Below are positions 6,076-59,667 of a DNA stretch of 64,000 nucleotides, one piece after another. A program made the translations under genes and the position numbers. Under the pieces are notes generated by a model that saw only the letters and a list, made by a program, of their open reading frames with translations, did not search any database and was not told the origin of the DNA. Position 1 is the stretch's first letter, and each line of letters starts with the position of its first letter. The DNA is taken from the NCBI GenBank assembly GCA_905221615.1, contig CAJNDT010006188.1:144501-208500 (forward strand), read 5' to 3'. The stretch comes from Symbiodinium sp. CCMP2592 (lineage: Eukaryota > Sar > Dinophyceae > Suessiales > Symbiodiniaceae).

Positions 6076-6099
6076 CCTAGTTTCTCAAGTCCTTCGCGT

Positions 6100-8312: not shown

Positions 8313-8639
8313 GTCCCGTCTCTCTGTGACTCTCTGTCCCCGAAGGTAGACGTATCAGAAAACGAGGTGAAGGCCCGACCCTGAAGCGAAGCCTCTAGAG
8401 GCGCAAGCTGGGCATCTCCAGTGCAGGAGAATGCTGGGCGCTGGGCCGGCCGGGAGCAGCCCAAGAAAGAGAAGTCCAAAGAGCAGGTCCCGTCCTCCGC
8501 TGGATCTAGCGTGAGCGTGCGTGCCCGTGCATGCCTGTGCGTTGTGCTCCAGCACTGAGCTTGGGTGCATCTGTGGAAAGATATCGGCATCGTGCAGACG
8601 TGGTGGGCACTGAAGCTTCGCGTGCAGGTCAAGATGGAC

Positions 8640-8800
8640 GAAGAACTGCTGGAATTCGCCTTCGATGGTGAGCTGCAGGTCGGTTTTGCAACCTCAGTGA
8701 CCATCGAATGAGGCATTAACAGATTCCAGGAAGTTCAGACGCTGCTCGACAAGTCTGCAGACCCGATGGCGAAGGAGCCTTCCGTAGATCGGGCTCCCAG
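8640..8800 (+). CDS. Candidate exons leading into the ankyrin gene
   Basis: Plus-strand frame MDEELLEFAFDG (8633-8668) ends at a GATG|GTGAGC donor. After a TTCCAG acceptor, EVQTLLDKSADPMAKE follows at about 8727-8774. The second piece has the shape of the back half of an ankyrin repeat (helix ending L-L-D-x-x-A-D-P). It sits on the same strand as the clear ankyrin exons about 600 bp further on and is probably part of that gene. Confidence 0.42.
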
Positions 8801-8909
8801 TCCGCTGGATACGATATGATTCTATGATGGAACTTCTGGCATCCGGCGGGATGGGCTTGCATGTGCTCCCACCCCCCACCCTGCATGAATATGCATGATC
8901 GAGAGACCC

Positions 8910-8935
8910 AGGCGCACACACACACACACACACAC
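8910..8935. repeat. (CA)n microsatellite
   Basis: About twelve CA units read directly. Confidence 0.9.
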
Positions 8936-9329
8936 ATGAATGATCCGCCGGATGCGTTGCGAGGACGGTCGTGGAAACACTGCACTCTCTGAGGCCGCTG
9001 TGCAAGGCCACCGGGGGGCGGGCATTTGAGAAGTGTGGGGACTTCAGGGAAACTCTGGAAGCTGTGGAAATTGCACATCCTCTTCCGACCAGTTCGCAAT
9101 GACACCTTCGGGCTTTCAATGACGAAGTGGCAGAAGTGTTGATCTGGCTGTCGAGAATTTGTAGCGCGAGATTGCACCCACCAGTCCCCGTGTCCTGACG
9201 GACTTGAAAGTAGCGCCGATGCGGCTGTTCAGGAAGCAGTCCCGATTCCCGGATGCAGGGCCAAGACAAAACGGGCTCTCTGTTGTAGAAGACAATCGGC
9301 CCTCCAAGAATCCGAACTTGGAGTGTGGA

Positions 9330-9740
9330 GGCCACCTCGAAGTGGTGAAATGCCTGTTGGCTTTGGCCTCAGACCTCGGTGAGCTGAAGAGCTTTTCTCC
9401 GCAGTCTGCCGAGGATTGGAAGGCAGGTCGGATGAGACGCCTTGTTTTGTGGTGGATAGGTGCGGGCTGTGGGCTGTTCGAGTGCAGGCACCCATTGGGA
9501 GCGATCCGAATGCGGCAGGCAGAGTTGTGTCAGCGCACGTCAATTTCATTCCCGGCAGTCGGAGGAAACGATGGCCGCACTTCTCTCCATCGGGCCTGCT
9601 TTCAAGGACACCAGGCCGAGCGGGAGCCCGGACCGCGCGCGCGCCCGTTCCTGTTCCCAGGCCGTGGCCCAGGTCTTGCTGGAGCACGGCAGCGACCCTC
9701 GCACGAAGGCAGCGGGCGAAGGGGCGAATGCCCGGCATCT
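9330..9740 (+). CDS. Ankyrin-repeat protein exons (first cluster)
   Basis: Exon A reads GGHLEVVKCLLALASDL, a typical ankyrin second helix and loop, ending at a GT donor near 9379. Exon B (9559-9614) reads GNDGRTSLHRACFQGHQ, the classic D-G-R-T-x-L-H start of an ankyrin repeat. It is followed by a 46-nt GC-AG intron (9615-9660) and exon C, AVAQVLLEHGSDPRTKA, which completes the repeat in frame. Ankyrin repeats mediate protein binding. The joined repeat across the tiny intron is strong support for both the gene and the GC donor. Upstream AAA-like exons and the second ankyrin cluster at 14.4-14.9 kb may belong to the same or a tandem gene. Start and stop are not located. Confidence 0.7.
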
Positions 9741-9744
9741 TCTG

Positions 9745-12560
9745 CCTGTGAGTCTGTGAGTTTTAGATCTTCTGCCTGTCTTGACGCCCCTTGGGGTTAT
9801 GTACCGGACCATGCCCGTGCACCATGCGGTGTGCTCGATGTTTTCGGTATCTTGAAAGTGACGCCGTCACGTTAATTGAATTTCGATCCTCAAACATCTC
9901 AAAGTGACGTTCCTGTGATCGGTGCAGCACAGGCAGATTCATTTGGCATTCATTTTCAGGTCGATCCCGTCTTTTGCCGGGAAAAGCTCTCACGAAGGGT
10001 AGTGGGGACCCTTTGCAGCGATACAACATGGCCGCTTTGTGTGTGAACGTGTCGTTTATCCAGGAGAAAGGTTTTTCGGAATGCGAATACTCCGAGCGGG
10101 ATATGCTGATTTATTTCGTGAATATTTGTTTTTTCGCGCCCTTTGTCCAGCCAACAGCACGGGTTTGGCTCGAGCCCGGGGTCACTGACGCTGAACTTGT
10201 GGCCGGGAGAGAGAGAGAGAGAGAGAGCCCATGACATGCGCATACAGCAGATCATGACCTTTGCCACTGACATGTACACGGACACGAGCATGTCCACGAC
10301 CGCCGCTGTGCACTCTGCCCATATCCACGCTTCATGAACATGACCATCTCCATGACCGTGCCAGTCAAGTGATGAACGTTGCCATGCCCATGTTACCACG
10401 TCATGACTGCCGACCATGTTGCAATTGCAGGGGGGAAACTCCGGGAAGCGCCGTTTGCACCGAAGCCGCGGCAGCATCAAGACCTGACCTGCCATCGACC
10501 AGCCGCACCATTCGTGACGATGGGAAGCCTTGTCGCAATTCGACAGAGGGGAAGCGGACCCAATTTGGGAAGGCAAGGCCATGATAACCCTCTGGACAGC
10601 TGGAAGCTTCGCGCCCCAGAAGATCTTCATCGAAGGGGGAGGGAACGACAAAGGGGAAGTGACGACCGGCCCGACTACACGATCCGGAAGTACCACAACG
10701 CGGGGACCGAAGGGCCCAGGCCCAACCACGACACGCACAAGGCGGGCGAGCCCCGCTACATGATCCAGGATGGGGATGGGGATGTCGGCAGCCAAGCGAT
10801 GGAGGAATGTCGCACAAGGGGGAGTGGGAGCTGCCAAAGAACGCTGCCCAACCACGACGACTACATCGTTGGCCTCAACTACCATGCCGTCCAGCCCGAC
10901 TACGCGACCCAGAAGCCTCACGGGGAGAAACAGTACCAGCAAATCGCGGACGGACCCGGTTCGACCCCGCCGTACGATCCAAAACTATCAAGCCTGTGCC
11001 CTGACCCACTCACTCGCAGCAGGACGGGGGGAGCCAGCGTGCAAGCCGAAGGGCATAGCGGGCACGGAGCCACGAGAATCGGGGTTCCCCGGCCTACCGC
11101 AACCCCTCCCACTGCCACTACCAGAATACGCCGTGGATGCTGGGCGAACGTGTGGCCACCGTACTTTGCAGGTGAGGCCGGGGGCAACCACGTAGAGGAG
11201 GCCACGACACCCCATGACCGTGGATGGCCGGAAACACCACAATGAAGGGCTGCAGTTCGGGCACGGAGCCCAACAACAGCCGGGCCCCCAACACATGGTC
11301 GGGGGGGGGGGGGGCGCCACGCAGCAGCTACAGCCCAACAATATACACCATGAACATTCTCCCAACAACTGCCGCAACAGCCACACCAGCCAAAGCACAA
11401 CAGCGAGGTGATGGCAGTGGGCACTCCATGAACCACGATTTCCAGCACCGATACAGCACCCAAGCCAAGAAGCATACACACAAGCGCCACAGTTAGGCCA
11501 GACAGCAAAGACTAGCAAGAGCGTCAGCTTTGCCCCAAGGCAAGACGGCGCCCAGTGCCCGGATCTAGCAAGCAGACCAGCAGACGACCAGGGGCACAGC
11601 GAAAGAATGGCGGGACCAAGCAGAAGATGGGGGGTGCTCAACGCCGGCAAGCACAACCGGTACAGGGGGCAGACATCGACCTTAAGAAGCAAGCGAGTGC
11701 CATGAGCGCAAAAAATTCTTTGAGGAGATTTTCGCCAAAGCAGACGGCTTGGTGCAGGGCAGGACGTGAAGCTCACCAGGAGGCCAACCCATTCCCCAGG
11801 CCTGGCCAGTTGTGGGGGCACCTGGCCGCCGCAACTTCCATTGTCCCGGGAAACATACCTGCGCCTGCGTTACCTCACTTTCGGGGTTACCGCAGAGTAC
11901 AGCAGAGGGGTTTCATGGCTGCGTGGCGAACGTGGAGCTTTAGCAACTGCACAACGGGGGAGCCGATGCAATGGCTGATGCCTGTGAGGAAGGGACTCAA
12001 GCAAGGCGAGGGGGAGCGAGACGCCGCAACCCTTGCCCTTGGCTTCTACATGGGGGGTCACGGCGGGTAGAGACGAAGCAGTGCATTTTGCCCCTAACCA
12101 AATCGCAGCCATCAGGGCAGCCAGAGCGCTCACCGGTGGATGATCCATGGCAACCGCGTGCCGCTACTCCCCACTTGAAAATAGACACCTTTACCCCACC
12201 TCGGCCAACAGCAGTGGGGGGCCACCCAACCGCAGCAGCCGGCGCAGCACCAAACGGCAAGGCCGAGCCCCCCCCCACACGGCAGGAAAACTTTTCTTTC
12301 ATTTCCCTGCCGCACGCACACAGATCTTCCAGCCAGCATCCGGTTGCACATCAGAACCCCACAAAAGGCAAAACCACCATGCCTCCAGCTCCAGCTCGGA
12401 ATCGCCGTGGCCGAGCGAAGACGAGGCACATTGGAGGAAGGACCAAGCTTCCTCATGCAAGGAAGCAGGCCCTCGGAGACAACAGGGGGGAACACCACCA
12501 ACGGGCGACAATCCCCACACCGAACCAACCCAGCAAGCGCGGCAGCGCTTGATTCTGTGA
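9745..12560. other. GC-rich stretch, open on both strands, no identified gene
   Basis: Long frames on both strands overlap here: plus frames of 288, 171 and 193 codons and minus frames of 328 and 277 codons. The plus strand is rich in CA/AC and purine runs, which removes stop codons in several frames at once. None shows a domain I know. Contains a (GA)n tract at 10206-10227 and a run of 14 G at 11301-11314. I regard this as composition-driven openness; a repetitive or low-complexity coding gene cannot be excluded. Confidence 0.45.
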
Positions 12561-26248: not shown

Positions 26249-26742
26249 CTGAGTAGCTCTGCGATCCTTGCTTCCCTGCGCCTTCGCTTTGCTTTTCTTC
26301 GTGACCTTTTACCTCCCAAAGGCAGCTGGTTCACTACTTCATTGTGACCTCCCTGGGTGTCCTTCTGCTGGGCGACCTGGAGCTGCCTCAGCTGAGGCCC
26401 TGTTGGCTAGCAAGCTGCTGGCTGTGATCGCTGTGTGTCTGCGGCACCCTTTGGCGATCGAGGGGCACAGCTCTTTTGGTCCTGACTAGGGGACCCTTCT
26501 TCTTGGAACTTCTGGGCCGGCTGGCTTCTGCGAACCACGGCCCTGGCAACTTCTTTCTGTCCGGGATCCTCCGGCTTTTTTCTCTGCTTTGGCTCCTCGG
26601 GGCCCACCTTTGGCTGTACTTAGGCAGCCACAGCTTTGACCTGGAGGACGCGGCGAAAGACCTCGTCTTCTACTACCTCTTTCTTCTTGGGTTTTTGGAG
26701 GCCCTGTTTTGGCGGCAGCCTTGGCCGGAGCATTTTGCCACG

Positions 26743-28157
26743 ATGGCCGAGGACGACAAGACGACGTCGGCTTGGTACAAGGTGGCGACTTGGGACGGCA
26801 GCCCGGTGACTTGGCGGGCCTTTAGCCGTGAGATGCAGTGGTGGCTTTCTTCGCTAGATCTGGAAAGCACTAAGTACAATCTGGCAGCGAGATGGCTCTT
26901 GAGGCAGAGCGGTGTGGTTCGCCAGAGGGGCGAAGAGTTTGCGCCCGAAGACCTTCGATATCAGCCGGAAGTTAAGGCGAAAGACCGGTGAAGGAGGACC
27001 TGCTGGCGGGCCTGAACAAGCTGCTGAAGGCCCTTGAGGAGATGAATGGCACGAGTGCTTTGGACAAGAAAGGTGAGCTGCGGAAGCTCTTCTACACCGA
27101 CCTTATGAGAAAGCCAGGGGAACGGCCAGCGGACTTTATGTCGAGGTTTCGCTTCCTGGCTGCTGAGCTTAAGAGCGAGGGGATCGCTCTTCCCAGCTCT
27201 GAACTGGGATGGTTTCTTCGTGAGAAGCTCGGCCTCGACCCTTTGCGGAAACAGTTGCTGGAGACGGCCTTGCAGGGCCGGGAGAAGTTCGAGGAGGTCG
27301 AGGCTGAGGCTTTGCGTTTGTTCAAGGACCTCCATGCGGCGGACCCTTTGTTTCGCCGGGCCGGCTTTGAACCACGAGGCGGCCGGGGGCGAGGAATGGG
27401 TTATGCTTCTTCTTCTTCGTCTGGTGGCGGCGGCCCTCCGAGCGGTGGCTTCTCGGCCCCTTCTTCTACGCCTAAGGGCTCGACTTCGGGATCCTTCGCT
27501 GGGGCTGGCCGGGGCACGGGCTTTCAGCAAAGACGATTCCCCTTTTCGCGGCCCCGCCAGGCCATGGCAGCCGAGACGGAGGACGAGATGGCGGAGTACG
27601 AAGAGGGCGGCGAGGATGACGAGCTCATAGCGGACACGGGCGACCGCGAGGCCGGGCTGGACGAGCTGCTGGAGACGGAAGCGGAGGCCCTTGCGGCTGA
27701 ACTTGAACAGGCCGAGCAAGAAGGCTGTGACGAACAAGTGCTTGGCAACTTGGAGGATAGCTACGGCAGTGCTGCGGAAGCTTTGGTCTCCATGCGTGAG
27801 GCCCGTGCGCAACTGCAGGCCGTGAGGAAGGACCGTGGCTTTGGCAAGGCCGGTGGGCCAAGCAACCGATCGGGGCCGAGCTCTCCTTCTTCGACCGGCC
27901 CCATCAAGAAGCGCGGCATGTGCTGGGCACTGGGCTGGAGATTCGTGCTGCCCCAAGCCGGGAGGCGGGCGGCAAAGGAGCTCCAGTCGGGGTCTCCGGT
28001 CCACTTGACTGAGACCTTTGCGGAGGCTGAGCACGAGGTTCCTGAGGGGCACATGGTTCATGAGGCGGCCGTGGTGACCACTTTGGAAATTTCCGGGCCA
28101 GCCGGGGCTGGCCGGTGGGAGCTTGGCGGTGGACAAAAAGCTAGTGGGCGCTCTTGA
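26743..28157 (+). CDS. Gag-like protein of retrotransposon 1 (frameshifted)
   Basis: Likely start is the ATG at 26743 (MAEDDKTTSAWYKVATWDG); an in-frame ATG at 26476 adds a hydrophobic leader that is probably not native. The frame to 26991 gives the W-D-G-S-P start and REMQWWLSSLDLES typical of these Gags. A one-base shift near 26985 moves reading to the frame 26988-28157 (DLLAGLNKLLKALEEMNG, later an acidic low-complexity tail). A CCHC knuckle is expected near 27915-27950. In another frame GHWAGDSCCPKPG is visible but the first half is lost, so nucleic-acid binding is probably impaired. Gag forms the virus-like particle that packages element RNA. Confidence 0.78.
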
Positions 28158-28670
28158 TTCAGCATGCAACCGAACGGTCTGTGGGCGCGAGTGGTTTGAG
28201 AACTATATCGTCGCTTTGCGTGGTTTGCCCTGCTGGCAGGCCCTGGCTCCGCTTCTCGAGTCGGAGGCTGAGCGTGAGACCTTTAAGTTCGGGAATGACG
28301 GCACGAAGCCGAGCTTTGAGCGCCGCGCTTGCCGATGCTAGTGGGTGACACTTTGATCCTTGTGTGGACCAGCGTGGTTGAGGTCCCAAGCCTCGGCCTC
28401 TTGTTGGGCCGGGACTTCCTCGAGGGCATCGGAGGCGTGATCAGCTTTACCCGTAGGGCCCTGCGTGCAGATTACCTGGATGGCAAGCGCATTCCACTGA
28501 AGCAGTTGACGGCAGGGCACCTTTACCTGGAGATCCTGCCGGCGATCCCGCTCAACCTGCCCAACGGAGGGCAGCTGCACTTAAGCCTGTTGCTTCGGGA
28601 GAGCGAGTGCATGAGCAACTTTCACTTGAAGCGTCGGCCGGCATTCGCAATGTTGGGGGTTCGAGCATGA
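28150..28670 (+). pseudogene. Aspartic protease of retrotransposon 1 (frameshifted)
   Basis: The first frame reads ALDSACNRTVCGREW (28150-28194), the active-site loop with D-S-A in place of the common D-S-G. Reading shifts at about 28329 to a frame containing SLGLLLGRDFLEGIGGVISF, the hydrophobic motif near the C-terminus of retropepsins. The two halves are in different frames, so a full protease needs a shift. It would cleave the Gag-Pol polyprotein. Confidence 0.7.
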
Positions 28671-28722
28671 GGCCCAAGCCCCGGGAAAGCAAGGCCCTGA
28701 CGGTAAAGGCGGCGCGGCCAAG

Positions 28723-30020
28723 GTGATCCAGCGCTACCGCCGGCTATGCCTCCGCGTGCTCGGCCGAAACATGTGGCACTTGGGTGTTCTGCTTTGGTTG
28801 CTGCAGCGGCCCTCTCTTCGGTATGTTCCCCTGCCTTACGGGAGCGTCCGGTCCCCTGTGCAGTGGAAGGAGCAGGCCGAGGCTATGGTGAAGAACGGTG
28901 CGTGGCCCCGTCGGCACTTCAGGCGAGCCGTTATGGAGAACCTCTTCGAGAACCTGGAGCTGCTGAAGGATGGAGCCTACCTCCGCGACCGCCTGGGAAT
29001 CAGATTGGCTTTTCTGGAGGATCCAATGCTGGACGGCATGTTGGCGGCCAAGGCGACCAAGGGAACCAAGGCGGCCATCCAGTCCCAGCTGGTGTCCAAG
29101 CTCAAGCGCGAGGCGGCGGAGAAGCGCGAAAAGGGAGAGGCGATGAAGGCGGCAAGGTCGTTGCTCGGACCTCGCGGGGGGCTGCCCACTTTGAAAGGGG
29201 ACTTGCTGCGACTGGCAGCGCTTCTCAATGTCGAGACCTCTTCCGCCGAGACCGTGGACAAGCTCAAGCAGAAGCTCCGCCCGATGATCGACACACTTCG
29301 GGGCATTCCCTTGGAGACTCCAGCGGCTTCTTCGGCAACCCCACCGGGAGCACCGACGGCGACCGTGCAACCTCTACCCGCACCTCCGGGCGACCGTCGG
29401 CGGCACGATCCGGAACACCTTCGGCCAAGCGATTTGGGACAACCACTTGCAAGGACAGCCGGGCCCATGGAGGCTCCACCGGGCCACCATCGAGACGAAA
29501 TCCTTCGAGAAGTGCAGGCGATGATGGAGCAGCGGGACAACCGAATGGAAAGCCTCCTGGCCCAGACCATGCAGCACGTGATGGCCATGTCGCAGGCCGG
29601 GACCCACCATGGGGAAGATCCCCTGTCGCCGGACAGCAACATGGGCTTCGGTCTGGTGGAGGAGGAGGAGGAGTTGTGATACCTGAGTTGCGCCAGCGAG
29701 TCAAGCCCGGGCAGCAGCTTCTCCTTCGACAAGCTTGGGCTAAATACCGCCGTGACCGCGACCTGCTGCATGTTACCTCCCAAGATGTGCGCGAAGCTTT
29801 TGAAATGACGGCTGCCCAGGACTATGACACCGCCCTGGCCGAGCCGTTCGTCGGCCTTGCTGGCAACTGGCCGCGGCGGTCTTCCCCTAGCCTAGGCCAG
29901 CTGCTCACTGAGGAGGCTGGTCGACGTGGGCACGCCGTGACGGCGGTGCCTTTGGATGCGGCGCCGGCCGGCCTTACTTCGTTTGCTTCCGCTTGGCCGG
30001 CCCCTCTCCGCTTTGCTTAA
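28723..30020 (+). CDS. Linker protein between protease and integrase, unknown role
   Basis: A 318-codon frame (28723-29679) with basic helical segments (VSKLKREAAEKREKGEAMKA) and a small fold-like patch (LPTLKGDLLRLAALLNVE) followed by Pro/Ala-rich sequence and an acidic end. The overlapping frame continues VIPELRQRVKPGQQLLLRQA to 30020. Such long low-conservation linkers are common in dinoflagellate copia polyproteins. I cannot assign a function. Confidence 0.55.
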
Positions 30021-30479
30021 CTTCTCGGGGACCCAGGCCAGACGCGATGCTGAAAAGACAAATTTGGAGTGGCGGCCGTGCTGAAGGCGGCTCTGGCACA
30101 TCGTCGGTCTGGCGCATTTTTTGATCGAGTTTGATCGTGGCGCTCGCCCCGACCGCACCCCGGAAGGCAAGGCAAGGAGCTTCTTGATGAGCTCGGTGAG
30201 GCCGACTTCGTGATGAATGGGCGGCGCTACGTGACTTCGAGCCCCTCCTTTGTGACGGCGCTCAAGGAAAGCAATGCTGAGGACCTCGGCGAGCTGGCGG
30301 CCCGAGCCGAGCCCTTGGAGGTATCGAGAAGCAGTTCGACCGAGACTATGTGGAGGAGCCCGGGAAGGTTCACGAAGGCCTGGCGGCAGAGACGTTTGAG
30401 GATGACGACCCGGTCTCAGATCATGGCGAAGAGTCGGAGGTGGATGAGCCGACCCAGGCCACGGAGGAGGAGAGGATGA

Positions 30480-31190
30480 TCAAGGCGATTCCGGCTGTGG
30501 TGCGGCAGGCGGTGAGGAGGCTCCACGAGAACACTGGGCATCGGAGCGGGGGCTGAAGCTGTGCTGGCCGCGAAGCAGCTGAAGTGTTCCCTTTGCGAGG
30601 AGCGGCGACCACCTAAGGCTCTAAGGTGCAAAGATCGGCATCATTGCCGGGGCCCCGCGAGCCTGGCGACCAGGTTGGCATCGATGTCTTTGATGTTTTC
30701 GATGGCGTTGGCATGCGGCTCTCGGTTTTGCACGCTGTGGACGCCGCAACGAAGTTCAAGATGGCCGTGCTGGTGGAGCACAAGTCCAGCGCTGAGGTGG
30801 TGAGCTTTCTTCGGGAGCGTTGGGCCCCAATCTTTGGAATGCCGCGCACCTTGGCGGCAGACCAGGGCCGGGACCGGGAGTTCGTGAGCCAGGAGCTGGA
30901 GAACTTTGCCGGCGAGAACAACATGTACTTCCACCACATTGCCGTGGGTGCTCCGTGGCAGAATGGCTTGACGGAGCGAACCGGAGGGATCCTGAAGGTG
31001 CTTGTTGGCGCCTGTGTGGCGGCACAATCGCTGATGGGAGCTGAAGAGATGAAGATGGGCCTCGCTGAGGGGCTCCTGGCCTACAACATGGACGTGGGCG
31101 ACAGCGGCTTTTCACCGATGCAGGCGGCTGTGGGACGACAACCGCTACCCCCGGGAGATGCACTCGGTGGAGGGCGACTTGGAGAACTGT
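30480..31190 (+). CDS. Integrase of retrotransposon 1 (zinc-binding part damaged)
   Basis: VRRLHENTGH and LKCSLCEERRPPKA (about 30510-30620) are remains of the HHCC zinc-binding domain, separated by a frame change and a short loss. The catalytic core is open from 30626: D20 in VGIDVFDVFD, D79 in AADQG and E117 in GLTERTGG. Thirty-seven residues separate D79 and E117, two more than the usual 35, explained by a visible two-codon duplication (GRDRE for GRE). Integrase joins the cDNA ends to the host genome. The normal C-terminus is cut off by the foreign fragment that follows. Confidence 0.8.
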
Positions 31191-31895
31191 CGGCGTTCTC
31201 GAAGGGGGACCCCAAGAAAGTGATAGCTGCGCTAGAACTGCTAGCGACCCTCGTGGGGATACGTCTCTGGGTCCCCGAGGGCGAGGATGGAAAGACCTCG
31301 CGAGTGGCCATCCGTGGATATACGGATAACAAGTCCAATGAGGCACTTGTGAAGAAGGCTATGACGACCAAGTATCCATCCATGCTAATTTTAATGGAGG
31401 TAGCCGAAGAGCTATCCCAGAAGAACTGTGAGCTACAGCTCCAGTAGATACGGCGAGACATCAACCAGCTAGCAGACGACCTCACCAATGAGGAATTCAA
31501 GGAGTTTGACCCCGATCAGAGGATAGATCTGAAGGGGGAAAACTTCGAGTGGCGAGTCCTTGGCCGGCTACTCGCGCATGCAGATAGCTTCTACAAGGAG
31601 CTAGGCACGCGAAAGCGAGGGACACCGGATAGGATGTCGAAGTTTAGCCGAAAGGCCAGGAAGCTCGATCCCTGGTAGCCTGAGTGGCGATGCGTGGGGA
31701 TAGATAGCCGAAGGCTATCGGATATCTCCAGGCAACCTGGGATAGTTGCCACTTCAGACAAAAAGTCCGTCAGTGCTAGCTGAGTGTGTTTGTCTTGTTT
31801 GGTTGTCGCTCGGCTAGCTCGCAAGCTAACTACGACTATTACTGCTATCGTCCTGGTGGAGTACCGGGGATGGTGGTGGGATATAGGAGCTAGTC
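31190..31895 (+). mobile_element. Foreign retroelement 3-prime fragment inside retrotransposon 1
   Basis: From about 31190 the sequence stops resembling copia and reads KGDPKKVIAALELLATLVG, RGYTDNKSNEALVKKAM and, after an in-frame TAG at 31445-31447 (apparently TGG mutated), IRRDINQLADDLTNEEF, ending in KARKLDPW and a stop at 31676. From memory this is the RNase H end of a different dinoflagellate retroelement type (DIRS or Ty3-like). Non-coding sequence to about 31895 matches the scrap at 25.04-25.16 kb and is probably that family's 3-prime end. It replaces the copia integrase tail and the first half of reverse transcriptase. Confidence 0.72.
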
Positions 31896-31904
31896 CACGC
31901 CTTC

Positions 31905-33659
31905 ATGAAGGGCGAGAGATACATGGAAGGGACAAGGGAGCTCTACGTCAAGAATGTGGAGGTTCGCAATGGCAGCCCTTCCTTGCCTTTGGGCCGGCGC
32001 CTGAGCCGAGTGCTTAAGGGCGTTTTTGGCCTTTCCGACGCCCCTCGGGAGTGGTTCTTGAGGTTGCGCAAAAGCGTTTTGCGAGAAGGCTGGCGAACTT
32101 CGACCATGGATGCCGCGACCTTCTTCCTGTGGTCCAAGGGTCCGAACCCTCGCTTGCTAGGCATGCTTTGCAGCCACGTGGACGACCTCCTTTTCTGTGG
32201 TGGCAAGGAGGCCTGGGACTCTATTCGCCGATTGGGCGAGGAGCTGGGCTTCGGGTCGCTCGAAGAGAACACGTTCGTCTACTGCGGCAAGCGGGTGACC
32301 CAGGACTTGGTGAGCGGCGAGGTGACTGTGTCCATGAGAGAGTACCACCAGAACCTGAAGGTGATCAGAGTTCCGAGCACGAGGCGACGCGAGGTGGATG
32401 CCTCGTTGACTCCGGGAGAGCACAAACAGCTTCGAGCCCTTGTGGGCTCCCTTCAGTGGCTTGTGGCCCAGGTTCGCTTCGACGCTGGCTTCCTCCTGTC
32501 CGTGTTGCAGGCAGGGACGCCGACCGTGGGCACCCTTTTAAAGGCGAACCAGTTGATCAAGCTCTTCCAGGAGACCGGTGACTTCGAGCTGCGCTTCCGG
32601 CCGCTGGACCTCAGCAACGTCGGGATCCTTGTGGTGACGGACGCCTCCCTCGGCAACGTGACAAAGACTGGCGAGATTGGCTCTAAACCTCTGGAGCGCG
32701 TCTACAGCCAGAGCTGCTACTGTGTGTTGCTAGCAGAGGCCTCCTTGATGCGGGGAGGCAAGGGCCGGTTCACGGTGCTGGACCACCGGTCGCACAGACT
32801 GCAGCGAGTTTGCCGCAGCACCTTCGCGGCAGAGATGCTGGGAGTTGAAGAGGGTGCCGACGCCGGGCAATATTGCCGGGGGCACCTGGCGGAAGTCCTG
32901 GGCTATGACCTCGGCCACAAGGGCGTGGACTGCATCCTGGACGGCATCGGGATGGTGATCTGCACCGACGCCAAGGACGTGTACGACAAGGGCAACAGCG
33001 ACACCCCGTCGTATGGCAGCCAGAAGTCCCTAGCCTTTACTGTGGCATGGCTCAGAGGACTCCTCAGCAGGGGGAACACCGCCCTGAAATGGACAGCGAC
33101 GGAGAACATGTTCGTCGACTGCGGGACCAAGGACATGGACGGATCTCACATGCGGAAAATCCTTGGGTCCGGTGAGTGGAGCTACAAGTACGACGCCGAC
33201 CTCGTGAAGCAGACTGTACGCGCCCGGGCACCTGTCCAGCGAGGACCTCAAGTGCTGAGCGGCACGGCCGTGGGGCCGAGTGATCCCGTGCTCGGGTTTC
33301 TTCAGGGGCTTTCCACTGAGAAAGGATGGCATCGTAAAAACACGACGGCTATCCAAGTAGCCCACGGTGCTAAAAGCTATCGGCGACCCGAACCTCGTTT
33401 CAGCCCTAAAGATTACCCGTACCGTACCACTTATGCTTTATTCCATGATGAGCATGGTAGGGGTGCGTGGCGTTTGCTGGAACGAGATGAGGTGTACGGC
33501 CGTATGCTGAAGCCCTTCGACCGAACGGCGGCAGTCCTCATATCGATCTTCAAGACCCACAAAGAAAATAGGACCGATGTGAACCCAGATGCTGTGAGCG
33601 AAGGGTCTTTATCGATGTGTGAGCTGCCTGTCTTGTACGTGCCGACTTTTAGGCCTTGA
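31905..33659 (+). CDS. Reverse transcriptase (back half) and RNase H of retrotransposon 1
   Basis: Uninterrupted 584-codon frame. The first recognisable copia sequence is [20 protein letters not shown], then the catalytic [10 protein letters not shown] (Asp 93 and Asp 94). RNase H residues follow in [29 protein letters not shown] and NMFVDCGTK. The fingers region and the first catalytic Asp of the palm are missing, so it cannot copy RNA alone. A C-terminal extension of about 150 residues follows RNase H, and the last 27 codons lie inside the 3-prime LTR. The ATG at 31905 is only the first in frame. Confidence 0.85.
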
Positions 33660-49995: not shown

Positions 49996-50371
49996 AGGAG
50001 ACGAGTCAGCAACGATGAGCTTAGTCAGCCTGGTTATGATGAAGTAAAACGATGCAGTTTCCAGCAGACACGCTACAGATGCTATCGTCGTTCAATCAGC
50101 TAAGGTAGGCACAGCGCATAGCTAGCGCGTCCAACCTAGATTCCCAAGCTTCGCATCTAGGGCAATTGCGGATGGGCGGTAGCACACCGCGCGTTGTATG
50201 GACGATGAGAGCGGCAACGCCCTGCAGTCTTTTGTGCTTCAGGCTGGGGTTGTGCCTTGCTTCAGTGCCGTCACTCTGACCCATCCTGCTAGATGCGCCT
50301 CCTGTGCCCTGCAGAAGAGTCTTTTCGTTCAATGCCACATGTGGCTTCAACGTAGCTGCATTCGTTCATCG

Positions 50372-50634
50372 TGTTGTTTTCGGAGGCAAAGTCGCTACAA
50401 GTACCCTTGTCCGCATGCTTGTATAGAACGCATGCCAGTGCTGATTGCAAACCTCGCCATCCCTGTACATGTCGGTTCGAGGAATTCCTTCAGCCTAACT
50501 CTTTTTCCAGAGACGCTACGAGAGCATTGCGCCATGGCATGAAAACATTGGTGACTCCGACGAGGCCTGCACAGGCTTTGCTGTCACTTGTGGTTTGTGG
50601 GTTCAGCCATTTGAACCTTTGTTTGCTACCAGAA
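50372..50634 (+). repeat. 5-prime LTR of retrotransposon 2
   Basis: 263 bp, begins TGTTGTTTTCGG and ends TACCAGAA. Identical by eye to 59400-59662. Ends are TG...AA, not the usual TG...CA. Confidence 0.96.
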
Positions 50635-50635
50635 T

Positions 50636-50647
50636 TGGTAGCGGAGC
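50636..50647 (+). promoter_or_regulatory. Primer-binding site of retrotransposon 2
   Basis: TGGTAGCGGAGC one base after the LTR. Its complement ends CUACCA, as in eukaryotic initiator tRNA-Met, the usual copia primer. Confidence 0.8.
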
Positions 50648-50751
50648 CTTCCCTAAGACAGAGGGTTGGCTCCAGGGAAAACGACGCTCGACCGCTGCGC
50701 AAACTCGGGCTGCCTGTGGCTTGGGCCTGTCTTCTCGAGACCTACCCGGCT

Positions 50752-52380
50752 ATGAACCAGAACCAGGTGATCCCGTCTTGAAACGGCAACCACGCGACCT
50801 GGTCTGATTATGTTCGCCGAGTACGCCTCGAGTGGATGCGGACAGCTGAGAAGAATAAAGGGCTTCTCGGAGCCTCCCTTGCTTCGAAGCTGACTGGAAA
50901 GGCGTGGGAAGTGAGCATTGAGCTCGACCCGGTTCGTCTTCAAGATCGATGTGGAGCATCCTACCTGCTGGACTACCTCGAGGAGAAGCTGGCGAAAACC
51001 CCAGTGCCTGATCTGGGGGCCAGGCTTGAAGATTTCTTTCTGAAGACAAAGAGGAGTCCCGGGCAGGATATGGCTCAGTGGGCGACTGAGCTGCGAGAGT
51101 CTTACAAGAGGCTACAACGGGCCCTGGCGAGAGCGAGGTCCGGGCGGCCTATCTCCTCGACTTCGGCTATCCCGCCGCGATCTCCGTCGCCTCGGAAGAG
51201 TTCTTCCCCTTCGAGCTCGGCGCTGCGACGTGGATCTCCTACCAGGCGCCGGTCTTCTACTACCGTGGAGCCCGAGCCGGCCGACGACTTTGGCATCGAT
51301 GATCAAGTGCCGGATGAGGGTGAAGAGCTTCCTCCACCAGTTGCGCATGAGCGGCTGACGGGTGTGTATTCACGCGCTCAGCCTTCGTGCTCCGGTGAGG
51401 CGGAAGAACTACAGCGGTGGACCGACGATGAGTGGGACGATTGGTACCGAGGACGATGGCGCCGAGATGACAGGAGTGAAGCTTCCGGTCGTCCTCCCAA
51501 GGAACCGCTACCGGAGCCTGAGTGGGAGAAGTATGACATCAAGGACATTGAGGTCCTACCTCCGGAGATTCTGGGATGGCTGCTTCTGAGGAAATGCGGG
51601 TTGCCCAGTCATGAGATCGACGTGGTCGAGAAAGCTTTACGTGATCAAGAGGAAGAGCTTCTTGCTTCCGAGCGACACCGCGATCACCGTGACAACAGGT
51701 CCCGGAGATCCTACTGGGTCGAAGAAGGTGGGGAATGGGGACTTGTTGTGAATGATCTGGATCCCGCTGCCGAGGAATCAGAGCTGCAGGAGGTGATGTG
51801 GGTCGGCAGCCGCCTGCCTACCGAGGTGTATGCCGCAGATGAGCCTGAAGAATGGGTATCTCAAGGCGCCGATGGGTCTGAGGTTCACTGGACGTGGCAT
51901 GAGGGCGAGTACTACACCCAGGATGCTGAAGGGGTGTGGTGGTCCTGGGCGGATACCAAGCCGTGGATGGACATCGAGGAGTGCTACCAGGTGGACCCCG
52001 ACGGCGCGAAGGAGGTTGCGGAGGCCTACGCCGCCTACGAGCAGAAGGTCCGCAACTTCAAGGAGCCCCGACAGCTTATCGCGGCCAAGAACACCGCCCG
52101 TGGTTACTTCCCTCTCTCCAAGGGTAAGCAGAAAGGCAAGGGCAAGTTCGCAGGCAAGGGCGGCAAAGCAGCCGGAAAGTCTGGGGCAGTGATGGCGGCA
52201 GAAGGAAAAGGGAAGCAGAGACCGGGCAGTTCCTCCTACACTGGATGCTTCATTTGCGGTTCCAAGGAACACGACTACCGCGTGTGTCCCAAACGTTCCT
52301 CCGCGGGACATGGGAAAGGATCCTCTGCGGCTGCCTCCTACATGGTGATGAATGATGAAGAGGGAGCTGGTGAAGGATGA
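50752..52380 (+). CDS. Gag-like protein of retrotransposon 2
   Basis: Open from ATG 50836 for 514 codons. In the same frame an earlier ATG at 50752 gives MNQNQVIPS, then TGA (50779-50781), then NGNHATWSDYVRRVRLEWMR. Related Gags have Trp at the TGA position, so one TGG-to-TGA change has cut off the native start. The body reads LTGKAWEVSIELDPVRLQ and LDYLEEKLAKTPVPDLGARL. A CCHC knuckle sits at Cys471, Cys474, His479 and Cys484. Low-complexity Ser/Arg and Lys/Gly patches suggest RNA binding. The next frame (protease) overlaps from 52352 in +1, so Gag-Pol would need a ribosomal shift. Confidence 0.85.
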
Positions 52381-53290
52381 GGTCTCCGATCGACTTCTGT
52401 GCTACATGGACGTTAAGGAAGAGGAGGTGTCTACCGATGCTTCAGGAGACATTCCTCAGGACTTCGAGACGGCATGGGCCGCAGCAGGACAGCTGTATGC
52501 TGGCCTTGGCATCGTGGACTCTGGCGCTACCGAGACTGTCGGATCCCTCGAAGCGGTTGAGGCGGTGATGTCCAAGAGGAAGGCCATTTTTGGAATGGAG
52601 ACGGTGTCCGTCTTCCCGAATGTGGACAAGTCCTTCCGTTTCGGCAATGGCGAGCGGAAAGGAGCCTCAAGCTACTTGCAGCTCCCTCAGTTGCTGAATA
52701 AGAGTAAAGTTCAGCTTGGTCTCTACACCCTGGACGTGCCCCAGGTTCCCATCTTGATTGGTGTGAAGACTCTCAAGCGTTTAGGAGCATTGATTGATTT
52801 TGAGAAGCCGACTATCTGCTTCAAGAAGATTGCTCCTGATGTTTTCATTCCACTCTGCGAAAGCAAGTCTGGACATTTGATGATTGACCTCACGAAAGAC
52901 TGGATGTCTGGGGCCACAGTTTTCAGCACCCGCGCTACCGGGCGCGGCACTCGTGCACTTCAGCAAAATGCATCGCGATATAAGGAGTGCTTGCCTTCTC
53001 GCGATCAGGAGTGTGACGAGGCAGAGTTCAGTGAGTGTGCACATGAGCATGTAGAGATGCGACATGAGCAACATGCAGACAGTCTTGCTTCTGAAGATGT
53101 TCGTGCTGAGCTTGAGACACCACATGTACTACCTCATGTACCCCCTTCTGACCACAGAGCCTGTGACCTTCATTCGGATGCTCATGAGAAGATGGGCTCA
53201 ACGCAGAGCGCCAAGATAGCAATAGCAGGTGCAGTTTTTGTGAACACTGGTCTCGCAGGACCTAACTGCATCCCTCAATTCGACGGCGAG
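52352..53290 (+). CDS. Aspartic protease of retrotransposon 2
   Basis: LGIVDSGATETVGS holds the catalytic Asp56 in D-S-G-A form. QVPILIGVKTLKRLGALIDF follows about 100 residues later, the C-terminal hydrophobic motif with I-G in place of L-G. Open to 53653, but beyond about 53290 the better reading moves to other frames. It overlaps the Gag end by 29 bp in the +1 frame. It would release Gag and Pol parts. Confidence 0.82.
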
Positions 53291-53291
53291 C

Positions 53292-54082
53292 ATGTCGGCG
53301 CCAGACTTGAAGGCGACGCCTGCGAGCCCAGCTTCGGTGACTACGGCAGCTTCTTCGAGTCAGGAGAAGCCCAAGGCCGAGAAGGTCAAGAAGGAAAAGG
53401 TCCCCCTGGAGCAAAGGTACGATTTCAATCGTGCGACGGGACCCGATCCTCGGGACGGTCGGACCTCCGGCTACCCCTGCTTCGGCAAGCATGTGGAGGA
53501 GAAGATGGGTCGAGGATCGGCGAGCGGATGCAACGGAGCGGGACTGGAAGGTGTGCGCCAACTGCCAACTGCGCCTGCTGTATGTTCCCGCTTGGGGAGC
53601 GACGGGCCACTATCGACAAGCTGGACCTCTGCCGAAGGACGTCGAGACCGTGACCCAGCAGCGCAAGGAGACGAAGGAGCGTGGAGAGGAACCGAATGTG
53701 GCGACCCTGAAGGCCAAGGCTGTGGCTCTGGAAGGAGCCGAGGAGTCCATGCTTCGGGGACTCGAGCAAATACGAGCTCGGAAAAAGATGGAGCTCAGCA
53801 AGGCCTCCGGTGCCCAGCCGAAGAGCAAGGGCAAAGGAAGGGGAAAGCCAGCGACTACCACGCCGACGGCGACTCCTTCACCTACGGAGACATCCTCGCC
53901 TGCGGATCCGGAACAGATGGCCAGGACTCCGGGCCGCAAGAAGGCCAACGTCATGACGAGCGAGGAGCAGGAGTACGAGGAGTGCGAGGACCAGATCTGG
54001 ACGAGAGTGGATGCGCCTCGGGAGTGATTGGCATGACGGAAGCTGAGTGTGCTGAGCTTGAGGCTCAGGCTCGCGAGCTTAG
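53292..54082 (+). pseudogene. Linker region of retrotransposon 2 (frame changes)
   Basis: Frame from 53292 reads SSSQEKPKAEKVKKEKVPLE and TSGYPCFGKHVEE; from about 53500 the next frame is better: DWKVCANCQLRLLYVPAWGA, with C-x-x-C perhaps part of a zinc site. A Lys/Gly and Thr/Pro-rich tail ends at 54027. The real polyprotein passes through three frames here, so at least two indels are present. Confidence 0.6.
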
Positions 54083-54615
54083 CGCCTACTTAATGAACTA
54101 CGACAGCGTGACCCCAGGACTTCGGCACGGACAACCTCGAGTCTGGCCACCGCTTCCGGTGCATGGGACAAGTATATGGTCTTTGGACTTTATGCTCATG
54201 GAAACATGTCAGGGGTGACCAAGGCCACTGAGAGACAGCCAGAGCTTGTGAAGTATATCAACATGTTTCTGCAAGACAAGCTACCCAAGGACTTCGGCTG
54301 GACAACCTTCGTCATCTCCTATGACAACCAGTTTACCGTGCGCAAGGACAACCACAACGTCGGCCTGAATGCGGTGATTGGCCTCGGCGACTACAAAGGT
54401 GGGGAACTTTGGACTGCGAGCGAAGCTTCCGAAGCCAACTCGGTGTGGCGTGAGAGTCCTGATGGCAAACGACTCCCAGGCATTCTGCAGGACACCAGGC
54501 ATCAGGTGGTGGTGTTTGACCCCCACAACTTCCATGCCTCCAACTCCTGGGAAGGAACCCGAGTGATGCTGGCGGCTGTGAGTGTGCGATCCGTGTACAC
54601 GACCGAGGACCATAT
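54083..54615 (+). CDS. 2OG-Fe(II) oxygenase-like domain within the Pol polyprotein
   Basis: Numbered from ATG 54176: MVFGLYAHGNMSGVTKATER opens it, then WTTFVISYDNQFTVRKDNHN. A strand with LNAVIGLGDYKGGELW follows, then VVVFDPHNFHASNSWEGTRV. This is the double-stranded beta-helix layout: expected H-x-D near residues 56-58, a Gly-Gly-Glu-Leu strand, a distal His (H120) after F-D-P, and an Arg (R129) for the 2-oxoglutarate carboxylate. The first metal-ligand position reads Arg56 (codon CGC), not His. D58, H120 and R129 are present. Canonical family members hydroxylate proteins or nucleic acids. Here the domain sits between protease and integrase, in frame with integrase, so it is part of the element. 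Activity is doubtful unless His60 substitutes. Confidence 0.62.
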
Positions 54616-56989
54616 ACGTGGACGCCTACGGCAACTTCGATACTGTCTACCTCGCCGTCCACCTGCTGCTACCACGAGACCCTTAACGAGCTACGTCCTG
54701 GAGGACAATGAGGGCTTCTTAGAGCAGATGGGCGTCATGGAGGCTGATGACAAGGCAGAGCTCATGGCGGTGCTCGAGATGCAGTGCGACGACGCCGACG
54801 ATGTGTTGTCTGCTATGCCTACAACCGGTCGGCCAGAGACCGATGTGATGGAGATTGGCCCTCGACAGAGCCATGGCTTGCAAAATGCGTGCTTCAATAG
54901 AGAGCGGGACTATGTGTTCGTGGACTCCCTGGAAGCAGATATGGCTGGGCGTCGTGGTGTGAAAGCTGCTTCTCAAAGGCTGCAAATTTGCAGGCCTAGG
55001 TGGCTTGTGGTTCAGATGCCCTACTCTGCCTTCGACCACGGGGGAGAACTTGATGAACTACAAGCATCTCGCAAGAAGCGCCGAGCCCGAAAGATCATCC
55101 GGGGTTTATGCGAACTTCTGGCCATTCAGAAGCTACGTGAACAGCGCTGGATATTCCTGTGTCCCAAAAAGTCGAAGATCTGGAAAGAAAAGTCATTGTG
55201 CGCCTTTCTGGAAAATGAAAAGGGGACATGTGATCAAACAGAAGTTCGTGGCCTGTGGACCAATGGCGATACCAATGTTTACCGCCTGGTGACCAATGGT
55301 CAAGACCTTCTACGTGAAGTTCGACACGTTGTGAGGCCCAGCGGCAAGAACCTGTGTGAGGCTTTCATGCGACATCTAGAACAACCAGAGGTAAATGATG
55401 AAGTGTTTGGACTCCGTGACGAACCCCTCCTGGATGATGCCCTCACTCCTGAAGGCCGAAAACGAGCAGAACGGATGCTTAAGGTTCTACATGCTCGATG
55501 TGGCCACCCGTCGAACCAGACCCTGGCGTCAATGCTGCGAGGCCGGGGAGTGCATCATGAAGTGATCCAGATGGCTCTAAAGCATCAATGCCCGGATTGC
55601 CTGGAGACTCGTCTTGCTGACTCGCCACCTCAGGTCTCCCTACATCAGTGTGACACTCCTTGGAAAGTCATCGTGCTTGATAATGCAGAGTTTCGAGTGG
55701 GCAATGAGGTGACGCACTTCATGCTGATTTGTGATGAGGCGACTCACTTTGTTGCGGTGACGGAGCTCTTCAAACGACACTTCGAGGAAGGAAGGAATGC
55801 CACTGGAGAGGAAGTCCTGCGCGCTATGGAGCAAGCATGGATCCAGAGCTACGGCTACCCCGACCGTGTGAGGCTAGATCCTGAAGGTTGCTTCAGGTCC
55901 CGGCTTTTGGAAGATTGGGCAAAGGTGAGGGGAATTGAGATCTTCCCGAATCCCGGCGAGGCCCATCACCAAACTGGGCTGGCTGAGGCCCTTATTGGAA
56001 AAGTCAAGCAGGATGCTATGACGCTACTACACGGTGAGCAGATGGAGCCATTCAGAGCGATGCTGAACGTGGTGGCGGCGCACAACACGCTGCACAGAAG
56101 ACAGGGTTTCTCCCCTGCCCAATGGTGCTTTGGGCGAGACTTCACGATTGATGGGAGATTGTTTGAGTCCGAGCAAGCGGTGCCAGTTCTGGAGGGTATG
56201 AATGATCCTCGCCATGCTTTTGGAAAGAATATGAATGTACGACTGGCGTCGGAGGAGACCTACAGGAAGTCCCCGGCCTCCTTCCAACTCAGCAGGGCGC
56301 TCAACATGAAGACGCGGCCACAGCGAGTGTATCTGCCCGGGGACCTCGTCTACTACCGGAGGGAAAAGGCCCCTGCGGACAAGCCAGCTCATGAAGAGTT
56401 GGGAATCCCAAAGGCCAGAATGGCGAGATGGTGGGGACCTGCACGAGTGCTTTCGTCGGAGACTAGGTCTGATGAGATTACACGACGGCCTGCCCAGGTT
56501 GTGTGGATAGTTGCAGCAGGGAGGCTAAAGAGATGTTCTCCTGATCAACTGCGACATGCTTCCGAGCGAGAGGTGATCCTGGCGAACTCCACCCACGACT
56601 CGATCACTCCTGGATGGACCTTTCATTCCCTACTACAGGGAATGCAAGCGGGGAATTTCGATATCTACGACAACTATCAGCTGCCAGAAGACCGAGCTGC
56701 CATCGCTCGGAGAGGACCTGTAGGAAAGGCCCCGAGATCCAGGACCCCTGCAAGAGAACCCAAACAACGGAATCAAGAGCCTGATGTGCCCACAAGAACG
56801 ACAAGTCAAGAGCCAGGAAGGCCGTCAAGAGCTGCCACTGCTGGCATCGAGGACAATGGTCCCGTAGCAGAAAATAGCAGTCGTGTAGCTTCTGGTCCCG
56901 TAGCAGAAAGTAGCAGTCGTGTAGCTTCTGGTCCCTTAGCAGAAAGTAGCAGTCGTGTAGCTTCTTGTCCCGTGTTCAGCCTAAGGTAG
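54616..56989 (+). CDS. Integrase of retrotransposon 2
   Basis: Same open frame as the oxygenase-like domain. After a linker of about 290 residues the HHCC site appears: H439, H444, C472 and C475. The catalytic core has D502 in VIVLDNAEF, D568 in VRLDPEGCFRS and E604 in TGLAEALIGKV, exactly 35 residues between the last two (DD35E). The C-terminal part contains LPGDLVYYRREK and MARWWGPARVLSS, resembling the small barrel that follows copia integrase. Near the end three 36-bp repeats encode GPVAESSSRVAS-type units, then TAG stops the frame. The same frame continues after TAG into reverse transcriptase. Confidence 0.88.
56858..56965 (+). repeat. 36-bp in-frame tandem repeat, three copies
   Basis: Copies at 56858-56893, 56894-56929 and 56930-56965, differing at two positions. 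Each encodes twelve residues of the form GPVAESSSRVAS. A recent in-frame expansion just before the TAG at 56987. Confidence 0.95.
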
Positions 56990-57673
56990 TATCTGCAGGA
57001 CCCAGGATACGACCCTGATTTGTTTAGAGATGCCATGGAACGAAGGGCAGCAACCGCACCTACGTCAGAACTAGAAGGGCAACCGCTGTTCAAGCAGGCA
57101 CATGCAGCTCATGAACAAGCAGATCGTCCTCATCATGTCATAGTTCGGCAAGAGCAGCAACGATCAGCATCGAGTCACTTTGTTGAGGATCTTGCTGTGG
57201 GGGACACGGTGATGTGTGCGTTCAACGTGGAGCTGCCCAAGAAGGACAATCAGTGGAAGAAGATGTCTCGTGATCCTTCATCGTGGCTGGTCAAGGGACT
57301 GCGAAAGCAAGAGGTCAACCTTAGGAAAGTCACTCCTGAGGAGCGTGCTGGCTTCGAGAAGGCGAAGGAGGCAGAGGTTGAACAATGGGTCAAGGACGCG
57401 GCTGCGAAAAAGGTGTCGGAGCACATCCCCAAGGACCGTGTGATGCGCATGAGATGGGTCCTTACGTACAAAGACACCGGGGCACCGAAGGCGCGGATGG
57501 TGGTCGTCGGTTACGAGGACCCCGACTTGGAGACGCTGGTGAGTTCGTCGCCGACTATGAGTCGAAGGACACGTCAGCTGTTTTATATGATGACGAAGTA
57601 CATGAGAGCCAACTGCAGCGATGTGTCTATGCCAGACCGCCAGCAGAGTTAGCACGAGCTATGGGTGAAAGAA
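56990..57673 (+). pseudogene. Reverse transcriptase, front part, of retrotransposon 2
   Basis: Continues the integrase frame after TAG. RMRWVLTYKDTGAPKARMVV and GYEDPDLETLVSSSPTMSRR are the fingers region. MRANCSDV holds the first catalytic Asp, but the expected K-S-A-F-L-Q-G stretch is missing and the frame changes: VYARPPAELARAMG is read in another frame (about 57627-57668) before the inserted element. Not functional as it stands. Confidence 0.8.
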
Positions 57674-58230
57674 GGTAAGAGCGCCTGGTACGTGACCGGC
57701 GTTTTGTGGCGTAGCTGAAACAGGCAATGTGCTAAAACCTAGGGAAAACATGTATTATGACTAAAAAGTTGTGCTAGGAGAGGCGGAGAATCCCTGTGAC
57801 AGGTCGATCGTTTTAGCGAAAAAGGTGTTGCCGCTGCAGTAAAAGCCACTTTTGCGAGCACCGCGCTGCGCAAACTTGGTCTGAGTGGACGTTAATATGG
57901 TTGACCCATGCATGGATGCTCTGCGTCAATGAGATCTGGTCTGAGTGGACGTTAACATGGTTGACCCATGGATGCTCTGCGTCAATAACATGGACCACCC
58001 ATGGATGGTTTCGACGTGGGTTGTAGCAAGTGCCGAACACACTGTAATTACCGGTATGTTCGGCATATGACCCTAAGGAAACATTGGGCCTGCCTGCGAC
58101 AGAAGTCCGCAGTTCTGGGAGTTAAGGGTCGGGACTGGCCGGAATTAGCCCCCCCCCCACCCCCCACCAACACCCCCCCCACCCAAGAAAAGTGAGGGGA
58201 CGTACAGGACGCACACCAGGCGCTCTCACC
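57674..58230 (+). mobile_element. Introner-like inverted-repeat element inside the reverse transcriptase
   Basis: 557 bp. The left end GGTAAGAGCGCCTGGT (57674-57689) and the right end ACCAGGCGCTCTCACC (58215-58230) are inverted copies with 15 of 16 bases paired. Flanks repeat TGAAAGAA at 57666-57673 and 58231-58238 (10 bp if the following GG is counted). The left end creates a canonical donor (AAG|GTAAGAG) and the right flank supplies AAG as acceptor. Removing 57675-58239 restores the sequence without the element. The right end read on the other strand also starts GGTGAGAG, so it could supply a donor in either orientation. Inside are two 56-60-bp tandem units (57877-57992) and a C-rich run at 58150-58192. 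No protein frame. Confidence 0.85.
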
Positions 58231-58239
58231 TGAAAGAAG
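57675..58239 (+). other. Predicted intron coinciding with the inserted element
   Basis: GT at 57675-57676 and AG at 58238-58239. Joining 57674 to 58240 gives VKEGEAVQLVKACYGLVNA in one frame, a reverse-transcriptase segment that the unspliced DNA interrupts. Confidence 0.65.
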
Positions 58240-59388
58240 GAGAAGCTGTACAGCTGGTAAAAGCATGCTATGGCCTGGTGAATGCGACTCCCTAATGGGA
58301 CCACCAAACTTTTAGGTCTGGTGGTAGCTCATGTAGATGACTTTCTGCTGGCCGGGGATGAAACGAGTGAAAAGTGGCACGAGGCTGTGAGCACCTTCTA
58401 CCAGAAGTTTCGCTGGAGCCCGTGGGAGGTGTCCACTTATAATCACTGCGGAGTCCGAGTTCAAGAAACTCAAAGCGAGGTGATCCTGGACCAGAGCACC
58501 TATTGCGCTGGACTAGAGCAGATCAAATACGAGAAAAGGGATGAGAATCTGCCTGCCTCGCCTGACGAGATCTCCCAGCTGAGGGGACTGTTAGGAGGCA
58601 TACAGTGGAGAGCGTACTCCACAGCGCCTCAGCATCTAGCGATGTTGAGTCTTCTGCAGTCTCAGGTCTCAAAGGCCACAGTCCACACACGGCAGCAGGC
58701 GAACAAGTTGCGCAGAGAAGTTTTCAACCAAAGACACATGGTGATCAGAGTGCCAGACTTGGGCGTGAACGCCGAGGATGTGACATTTGTGGCATGGTGT
58801 GATGCTGCAGTTGGGAACCGTCCGGATTTGTCGAGCACGGGCGGCTACATGATGGCTGCCACGACGCCATGTGTACTTGACGGAGAAGTGGCACCCATGA
58901 TCCCGGTTGCCTGGCGATCTGGAAAGCTGCCTCGAGTGGCTAGGTCGTCACTCTCAGCAGAAACGCAAGCCTGCAGTGAAGCTGAAGAAGAGTTGATGTA
59001 CCTTCGAGTTCAGTGGAGCGAGATGTGTGGACGAGAAATCGACCTGGCGAAACCAGGTCCGACCGCCAAGGCCATCAGAGGTGTCATGGTCACCGATGCT
59101 CGAAGCTTGTGCGATCTGTTGCACAAGCAGGACCTGAACTCTTCGGCCGGAGGACTGAAAGAGAAGTACACCGCACTGGAAGCCCTGAGCCTCTTAGAAA
59201 GACTTCAGCAAACCAGCACAGAAGTTCGCTGGGTGCACAGCGATGCTCAAGTTGCAGACGCAATGACGAAGCCGAACCCGAGCGGATCGCTCTACGCTTT
59301 TCTGACATTGGGAAAGTCGCGACTGATATATGATCCTACTTTTACTAGTGCGAAGAAGCTCCGGAAAGGCAAGGTTTTTCATCAGTAG
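58240..59388 (+). CDS. Reverse transcriptase (back part) and RNase H of retrotransposon 2
   Basis: EAVQLVKACYGLVNA comes first, then a loss of roughly 25 residues with a frame change, then the frame from ATG 58282: RLPNGTTKLLGLVVAHVDDF with the catalytic Asp pair at 58336-58341. Connection-like sequence leads to RNase H with VAWCDAAVGNRPDLSSTGGY, SSLSAETQACSEAEEEL, MVTDARSLCDLLHKQ and WVHSDAQVADAMTKP, all four acidic positions present. The stop at 59386-59388 lies 11 bp before the LTR. RNase H looks intact, the polymerase does not. Confidence 0.9.
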
Positions 59389-59399
59389 CCTTTTGGGCG

Positions 59400-59662
59400 T
59401 GTTGTTTTCGGAGGCAAAGTCGCTACAAGTACCCTTGTCCGCATGCTTGTATAGAACGCATGCCAGTGCTGATTGCAAACCTCGCCATCCCTGTACATGT
59501 CGGTTCGAGGAATTCCTTCAGCCTAACTCTTTTTCCAGAGACGCTACGAGAGCATTGCGCCATGGCATGAAAACATTGGTGACTCCGACGAGGCCTGCAC
59601 AGGCTTTGCTGTCACTTGTGGTTTGTGGGTTCAGCCATTTGAACCTTTGTTTGCTACCAGAA
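59400..59662 (+). repeat. 3-prime LTR of retrotransposon 2
   Basis: Identical to 50372-50634. Followed by the CATCG duplication at 59663-59667. The sequence just before it is a weak polypurine-tract candidate (TTTTGGGCG). Confidence 0.96.
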
Positions 59663-59667
59663 CATCG

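Follow-up and report, generated by a model that had tools for sequence, protein, structure and literature searches.

The window analysed here is a stretch of 64,000 nucleotides from Symbiodinium sp. CCMP2592 (C5326:144501-208500 in a 1.1-Gb assembly of 5383 contigs), and it contains a Ty1/copia-type LTR retrotransposon with a short transposon-like insert in its reverse-transcriptase (RT) region. The features of the locus, in window coordinates, are:

50367-50371 and 59663-59667: 5-bp duplication CATCG around the retrotransposon
about 50372-59662: Ty1/copia-type LTR retrotransposon
50372..50634, + strand: 5' LTR, identical to the 3' LTR
57020..57652, + strand: ORF with the 5' part of the RT homology (homologues P0001-P0012)
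57666..57673, + strand: target-site duplication TGAAAGAA, left copy
57674..58230, + strand: MITE-type DNA transposon with GG...CC ends, 557 bp (from boundaries, duplications and family copies)
57674..57689, + strand: left terminal inverted repeat GGTAAGAGCGCCTGGT, with the 5' splice-site-like GTAAGAG inside
57675..58239, + strand: predicted scarless intron GT...AG, 565 nt (read from sequence)
58215..58230, - strand: right terminal inverted repeat, GGTGAGAGCGCCTGGT on the - strand
58231..58238, + strand: target-site duplication TGAAAGAA, right copy, which with G58239 gives AG acceptor candidates
58236..58298 (approximate; varies with the homologue), + strand: RT homology just downstream of the insert, third frame
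58282..59388, + strand: ORF with the 3' part of a copia polyprotein (RT end and beyond), 88% identical to P0013
59400..59662, + strand: 3' LTR, identical to the 5' LTR

The host element was assigned to the Ty1/copia type by its LTRs, its short target duplication and its copia-type RT. An earlier note on this DNA had described it as a retrotransposon with identical LTRs, and comparison of the LTRs confirmed this with a 265-bp match at 100% identity. The retrotransposon protein has named relatives in Symbiodinium sp. CCMP2592, Symbiodinium pilosum and Effrenium voratum, and the homologues bear PF07727; a Pfam search of the window's own retrotransposon ORFs returned nothing significant, and the RT is therefore identified through the homologues. 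RT homology lies on both sides of the insert, which bears out the claim that the insert splits the RT region. This homology follows frame 2 as far as about 57604, frame 1 between 57607 and the insert, frame 0 just past it, and frame 1 again from about 58282-58309, and stretches conserved in the relatives are absent on both sides. As judged from these predicted frames, the RT of the window copy is broken independently of the insert. Identical LTRs combined with a damaged RT suggest that this copy was mobilised in trans or was damaged after integration. A 36-bp tandem repeat (3.2 copies, 56857-56973) lies between the body of the long ORF at 54176-56989 and the RT.

The insert, reported earlier as 557 bp with 16-bp inverted ends, was found as described at 57674-58230. 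Its outer sequence on the + strand is GGTAAGAGCGCCTGGT...ACCAGGCGCTCTCACC; the 16-bp inverted ends carry one mismatch, at position 4, and the inverted arms were measured as 17 nt at 94%. The target duplication is exact over 8 bp, and of the 8-10 bp first proposed only the 8 bp stood, the 9-10-bp figure having arisen because the G following both copies was counted in. The ORF list of the window holds no ORF of at least 120 aa within the insert, which contains a tandem duplication with a period of 60 and a C-rich tract. It is classed as a MITE by being short and without a transposase gene, by its inverted ends and duplication of constant length, and by its many similar copies. A scan of the window for exact 8-bp repeats around 14-bp inverted ends (at most 2 mismatches, at most 3 kb) returned the insert together with hits whose anchors are AT simple repeats at 33.7-36.1 kb, and the same scan on 30 Markov-resampled windows gave 1 hit in total. 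A chance inverted repeat was ruled out as a reading of the insert by this resampling control and by the family copies. Separately, 20 bp just after the 5' LTR (50693-50712) are 90% alike to 57864-57883 inside the MITE, possibly by chance.

The insert is one member of a young family of MITEs. The genome search gave 259 candidates, from which 40 copies with 86-100% identity were scored; only the candidates closest to the window element were scored, and their number is a lower bound. The window copy is identical over 557/557 positions to a copy on contig C802 (locus L002), which has a different site, a different duplication and different flanks, and this identity upholds the view that the insertion is very recent. 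The nearest neighbour is at least 98.5% identical for 29 of the 40 copies. GG...CC ends with an 8-bp duplication of at most one mismatch were seen in 31/40 copies (exact in 26, one mismatch in 5). The other 9, whose end or duplication is not clean, were left out; they include L023 and L031, at which the automatic boundary looks shifted and a perfect duplication is visible. The ends fall mainly into two types, GGTAAGAG and GGTAACAG, the latter in 15/40 copies and the poorer donor. The family also has a GGTRACARCGCC subfamily, and the genome-wide end count covers the pattern A + GGTRAGAGCGCCTGGT, which has 44 exact sites (both ends of some elements counted) against 0 for the reversed control. 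The end sequence, whose possible uniqueness the earlier note had put up for checking, is thus not unique; a search of viral_contigs did not find it. Ten further loci were found by end sequence, of which five are clean and five (L057-L061) were left out. The pattern that found the five clean copies requires an A before the end, so that the count of A-ending duplications is biased and the count of the following G is unaffected. One of the loci left out, L058 (C813:34470), has an exact MITE end without a MITE body; it was rejected as an autonomous partner after the 1.6 kb examined showed no second end to match the first, and its end-like site is possibly a chance match.

The family prefers targets that end in A. 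Over 36 clean copies, A stands at position 4 in 34, at position 5 in 33 and at position 8 in 30, giving the preferred target nnnAAnnA, often followed by G. Among duplications ending in A, G comes next in 13/25 (window copy included) versus 0.268 expected from the flanks (p=0.006), and in 18/30 with the five later copies. This G excess is best read as target preference, because it is seen at copies without a recognised gene. The flanks have less than 50% G+C at 22/31 clean copies, and many are repeat-like by eye. MITE copies at L004, L008, L021, L022 and L024, and also at L054 and L056, lie in repeats that look similar by eye and carry TATAAGTA/TATAACTA-like motifs, as if these repeats were landing pads for the family. 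Because several copies land in intergenic repeats that are related to one another, they do not count as independent, and part of the strength of the motif comes from there.

Repeated origins from DNA transposons are proposed for introners. The ends of this element begin GGTRAG both ways round and resemble a good 5' splice site. The earlier note had derived a donor from the element and an acceptor from the duplicated target, and both are present in the sequence as described. The predicted donor is AAG|GTAAGAG (intron from 57675) and the predicted acceptor is AAG|GAG (intron end 58239), in the context ...TGAAAGAAG|GAG. Further AGs in the target duplication and the right end compete as predicted acceptor, which makes the acceptor ambiguous. 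Predicted splice sites thus come from the element and/or the duplication, as in introners. A scarless intron is possible on paper at 13/31 clean copies in the forward direction (the window copy and 12 of the 30 others) and at 6/31 in reverse, and the donors of the 13 forward candidates are GGTAAG in ten (window copy included), GGTAAC in two and GGCAAG in one. There are 15 junction-spanning ORFs of at least 90 aa; six were compared with Pfam and gave no convincing match, a comparison that is weak for small exons. Splicing had also been said to restore the original reading exactly. This is right for the nucleotides and wrong for the open reading, as the flank frames disagree even without the insert; with the RT frame broken on both sides, splicing would bring back the old DNA and not a working gene.

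The insert could be a true introner, in which case the family would lie regularly in genes, its copies would be spliced, and the window copy would be an intron of a retrotransposon transcript. Donor-like motifs at both ends, a usable AG after the target duplication and the G excess after A-ending duplications agree with this, and there is precedent, as Symbiodinium has published introners that bear terminal inverted repeats (TIRs) and target duplications (PMC9860276) and recent introners occur in 4/5 dinoflagellates according to Roy 2023, in the form in which an excerpt of PMC11453091 cites that work. We nevertheless consider a true introner improbable, given the low G+C, often repeat-like flanks of most clean copies, the Pfam comparisons of the junction-spanning ORFs, the poorer donor of the second end type and the ambiguous acceptor; target preference, moreover, explains the G excess at least as well. 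No gene was recognised at other copies by these weak tests, and of the introner identity first proposed, it is the introner-like ends, as predicted, that hold. The family may instead be a transposon on its way to becoming an introner, with end and target rules that yield a ready GT-AG intron at many sites; we regard this as unlikely, if worth keeping in view. Were it true, splicing competence would come from the end and target rules of the transposase and not from selection as an intron. The copies so far lie mainly outside recognisable genes.

The relation of the insert to its host was examined through other copies of both. The 39 other scored copies lie within 49 fetched loci (L002-L050), none of which matches the retrotransposon in its LTR or its body. 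Elsewhere in the genome the left RT flank found a single match, on contig C113 at 71%, in a search that skips very common words, so that the flank may be less rare than this count suggests. At this match (L052), the RT runs uninterrupted through the homologous position in a 558-column alignment with P0017, so that the empty-site comparison proposed earlier turned up related sequence free of the insert; this nearest empty site lies in a relative with about 71% identity and not in a sister copy. Thirteen homologous predicted proteins were compared at the site, and seven of them extend across it without a break (P0005, P0010, P0012, P0015, P0016, P0017 and P0024), and in the remaining six the site is not recognisably spanned. 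Gene models may have removed an intron, which makes the genomic DNA of L052 stronger evidence than the predicted proteins. With no other scored copy in this retrotransposon and an uninterrupted relative, the insert looks private to the window copy. A fixed part of the retrotransposon was ruled out as its identity among the copies found (the 49 loci and C113/L052).

The earlier note had argued that the insert must have landed as DNA after integration, since an intron would be lost on the next RNA copy. DNA insertion into this retrotransposon copy is supported, and the argument from RNA copying is not strict, because LTR retrotransposons normally package their genomic RNA in unspliced form. The insert could accordingly predate the last transposition of the retrotransposon and have been carried along in its unspliced genomic RNA, and the identical LTRs give by themselves no order of the two events. 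This sequence of events is nonetheless hard to credit, as no other retrotransposon copy with the insert occurs among the 40 scored element copies, the genome search with the left RT flank brought up no close sister copy, and identity to the independent C802 insertion indicates an element moving recently as DNA.

The superfamily of the element was approached through its ends and through transposase genes. GG ends and 8-9-bp duplications mark Merlin, which is present in Symbiodinium according to portions of PMC8101967. The window element is alike in TIRs starting with GG and in the 8-bp duplications of its family (26 exact and 5 with one mismatch, as above); it is unlike the Merlin described there in having no transposase, an inverted end of 16-17 bp versus TIRs of 24-462 bp, and no autonomous partner found. 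Searching the genome with DDE_Tnp_IS1595 gave 23 matches, each over the cut-off and without internal stops, compared with a match in 1/14 control genomes. The open frames of these Merlin-type transposase genes measure 128-503 aa (23 places; loci L063-L074). At 12 of the 23 loci, examined for 1.5 kb on each side, none had GG...CC inverted ends with an 8-bp duplication. Because of the short inverted end, and with no transposase locus tied to the ends, the element is called Merlin-like, as a putative placement, and is not filed as Merlin.

Another superfamily with 8-bp duplications, such as hAT or P, is a minority possibility that concerns the Merlin part of the interpretation only. Target duplications of 8 bp occur beyond Merlin, and both the sub-range inverted end and the want of a Merlin gene tied to the ends leave room for such an origin. 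We think it the less likely one, since the GG termini agree with Merlin whereas hAT and P termini usually begin CA, and Merlin-type transposase genes with open frames are present in the genome. The locus as a whole is very probably explained by a recent non-autonomous Merlin-like MITE that inserted into the RT region of one Ty1/copia-type retrotransposon copy. We infer both this order of events and a Merlin-type transposase as the mover. Acting in trans, the transposase would have inserted the MITE into the RT region and duplicated 8 bp of target; the GGTRAG end would mimic a 5' splice site, and a target of the form nnnAAnnA(+G) would tend to place an AG just beyond the opposite end. Scarless removal of the insert could then follow, provided that the locus is transcribed.

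Among published introners are families that have TIRs, duplications of 3-9 bp and one splice site taken from the duplication (PMC9860276). Those of Symbiodinium microadriaticum resemble the Merlin-like MITE in having TIRs and duplications, with one splice site from the element and the other from the duplication, but their duplications are 4 bp, the element carries the 3' site and the duplication gives the 5' site, whereas the window element has an 8-bp duplication and carries the predicted 5' site; they are also introns of genes, while the window element is a candidate intron (PMC9860276). Introners of Aureococcus share the 8-bp duplication, but bring both splice sites with them and lengthen the transcript by 12 bp, in contrast to a potentially scarless window element (PMC9860276). 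The introner elements of Amoebophrya, as far as sections of PMC7789003 describe them, are alike in that they lack an internal transposase, are flanked by direct repeats and have inverted repeats of 8-20 nt close to their ends; their direct repeats are 3-5 nt and they are defined among introns with non-canonical splice sites, unlike the predicted GT-AG of the window element. A search of the open-licence literature for introner, retrotransposon, target site duplication and splice site together returned PMC9860276 and PMC7789003 only, and a search for dinoflagellate Merlin MITEs returned nothing on the subject by title.

A mobile element with splice-like ends in an already damaged retrotransposon shows how such elements could become introns. 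A young family that combines donor-like ends with an acceptor-giving target motif would allow a direct test of whether intron-making precedes life in genes. Should none of the copies turn out to be spliced, the family illustrates how readily a Merlin-like MITE can mimic an introner.

Two further observations concern neighbouring sequence. At L042 (C4334:906200-916100), an open frame of 1352 aa (5844-9899, - strand) lies about 550 bp from a MITE copy. A second retrotransposon region of the window, at 26476-33659, has a PF00665 integrase core match at 30626-31447 (E 2e-7, narrowly below the cut-off) and, at 31905-33659, a weak match to RVT_2 (E 0.19).
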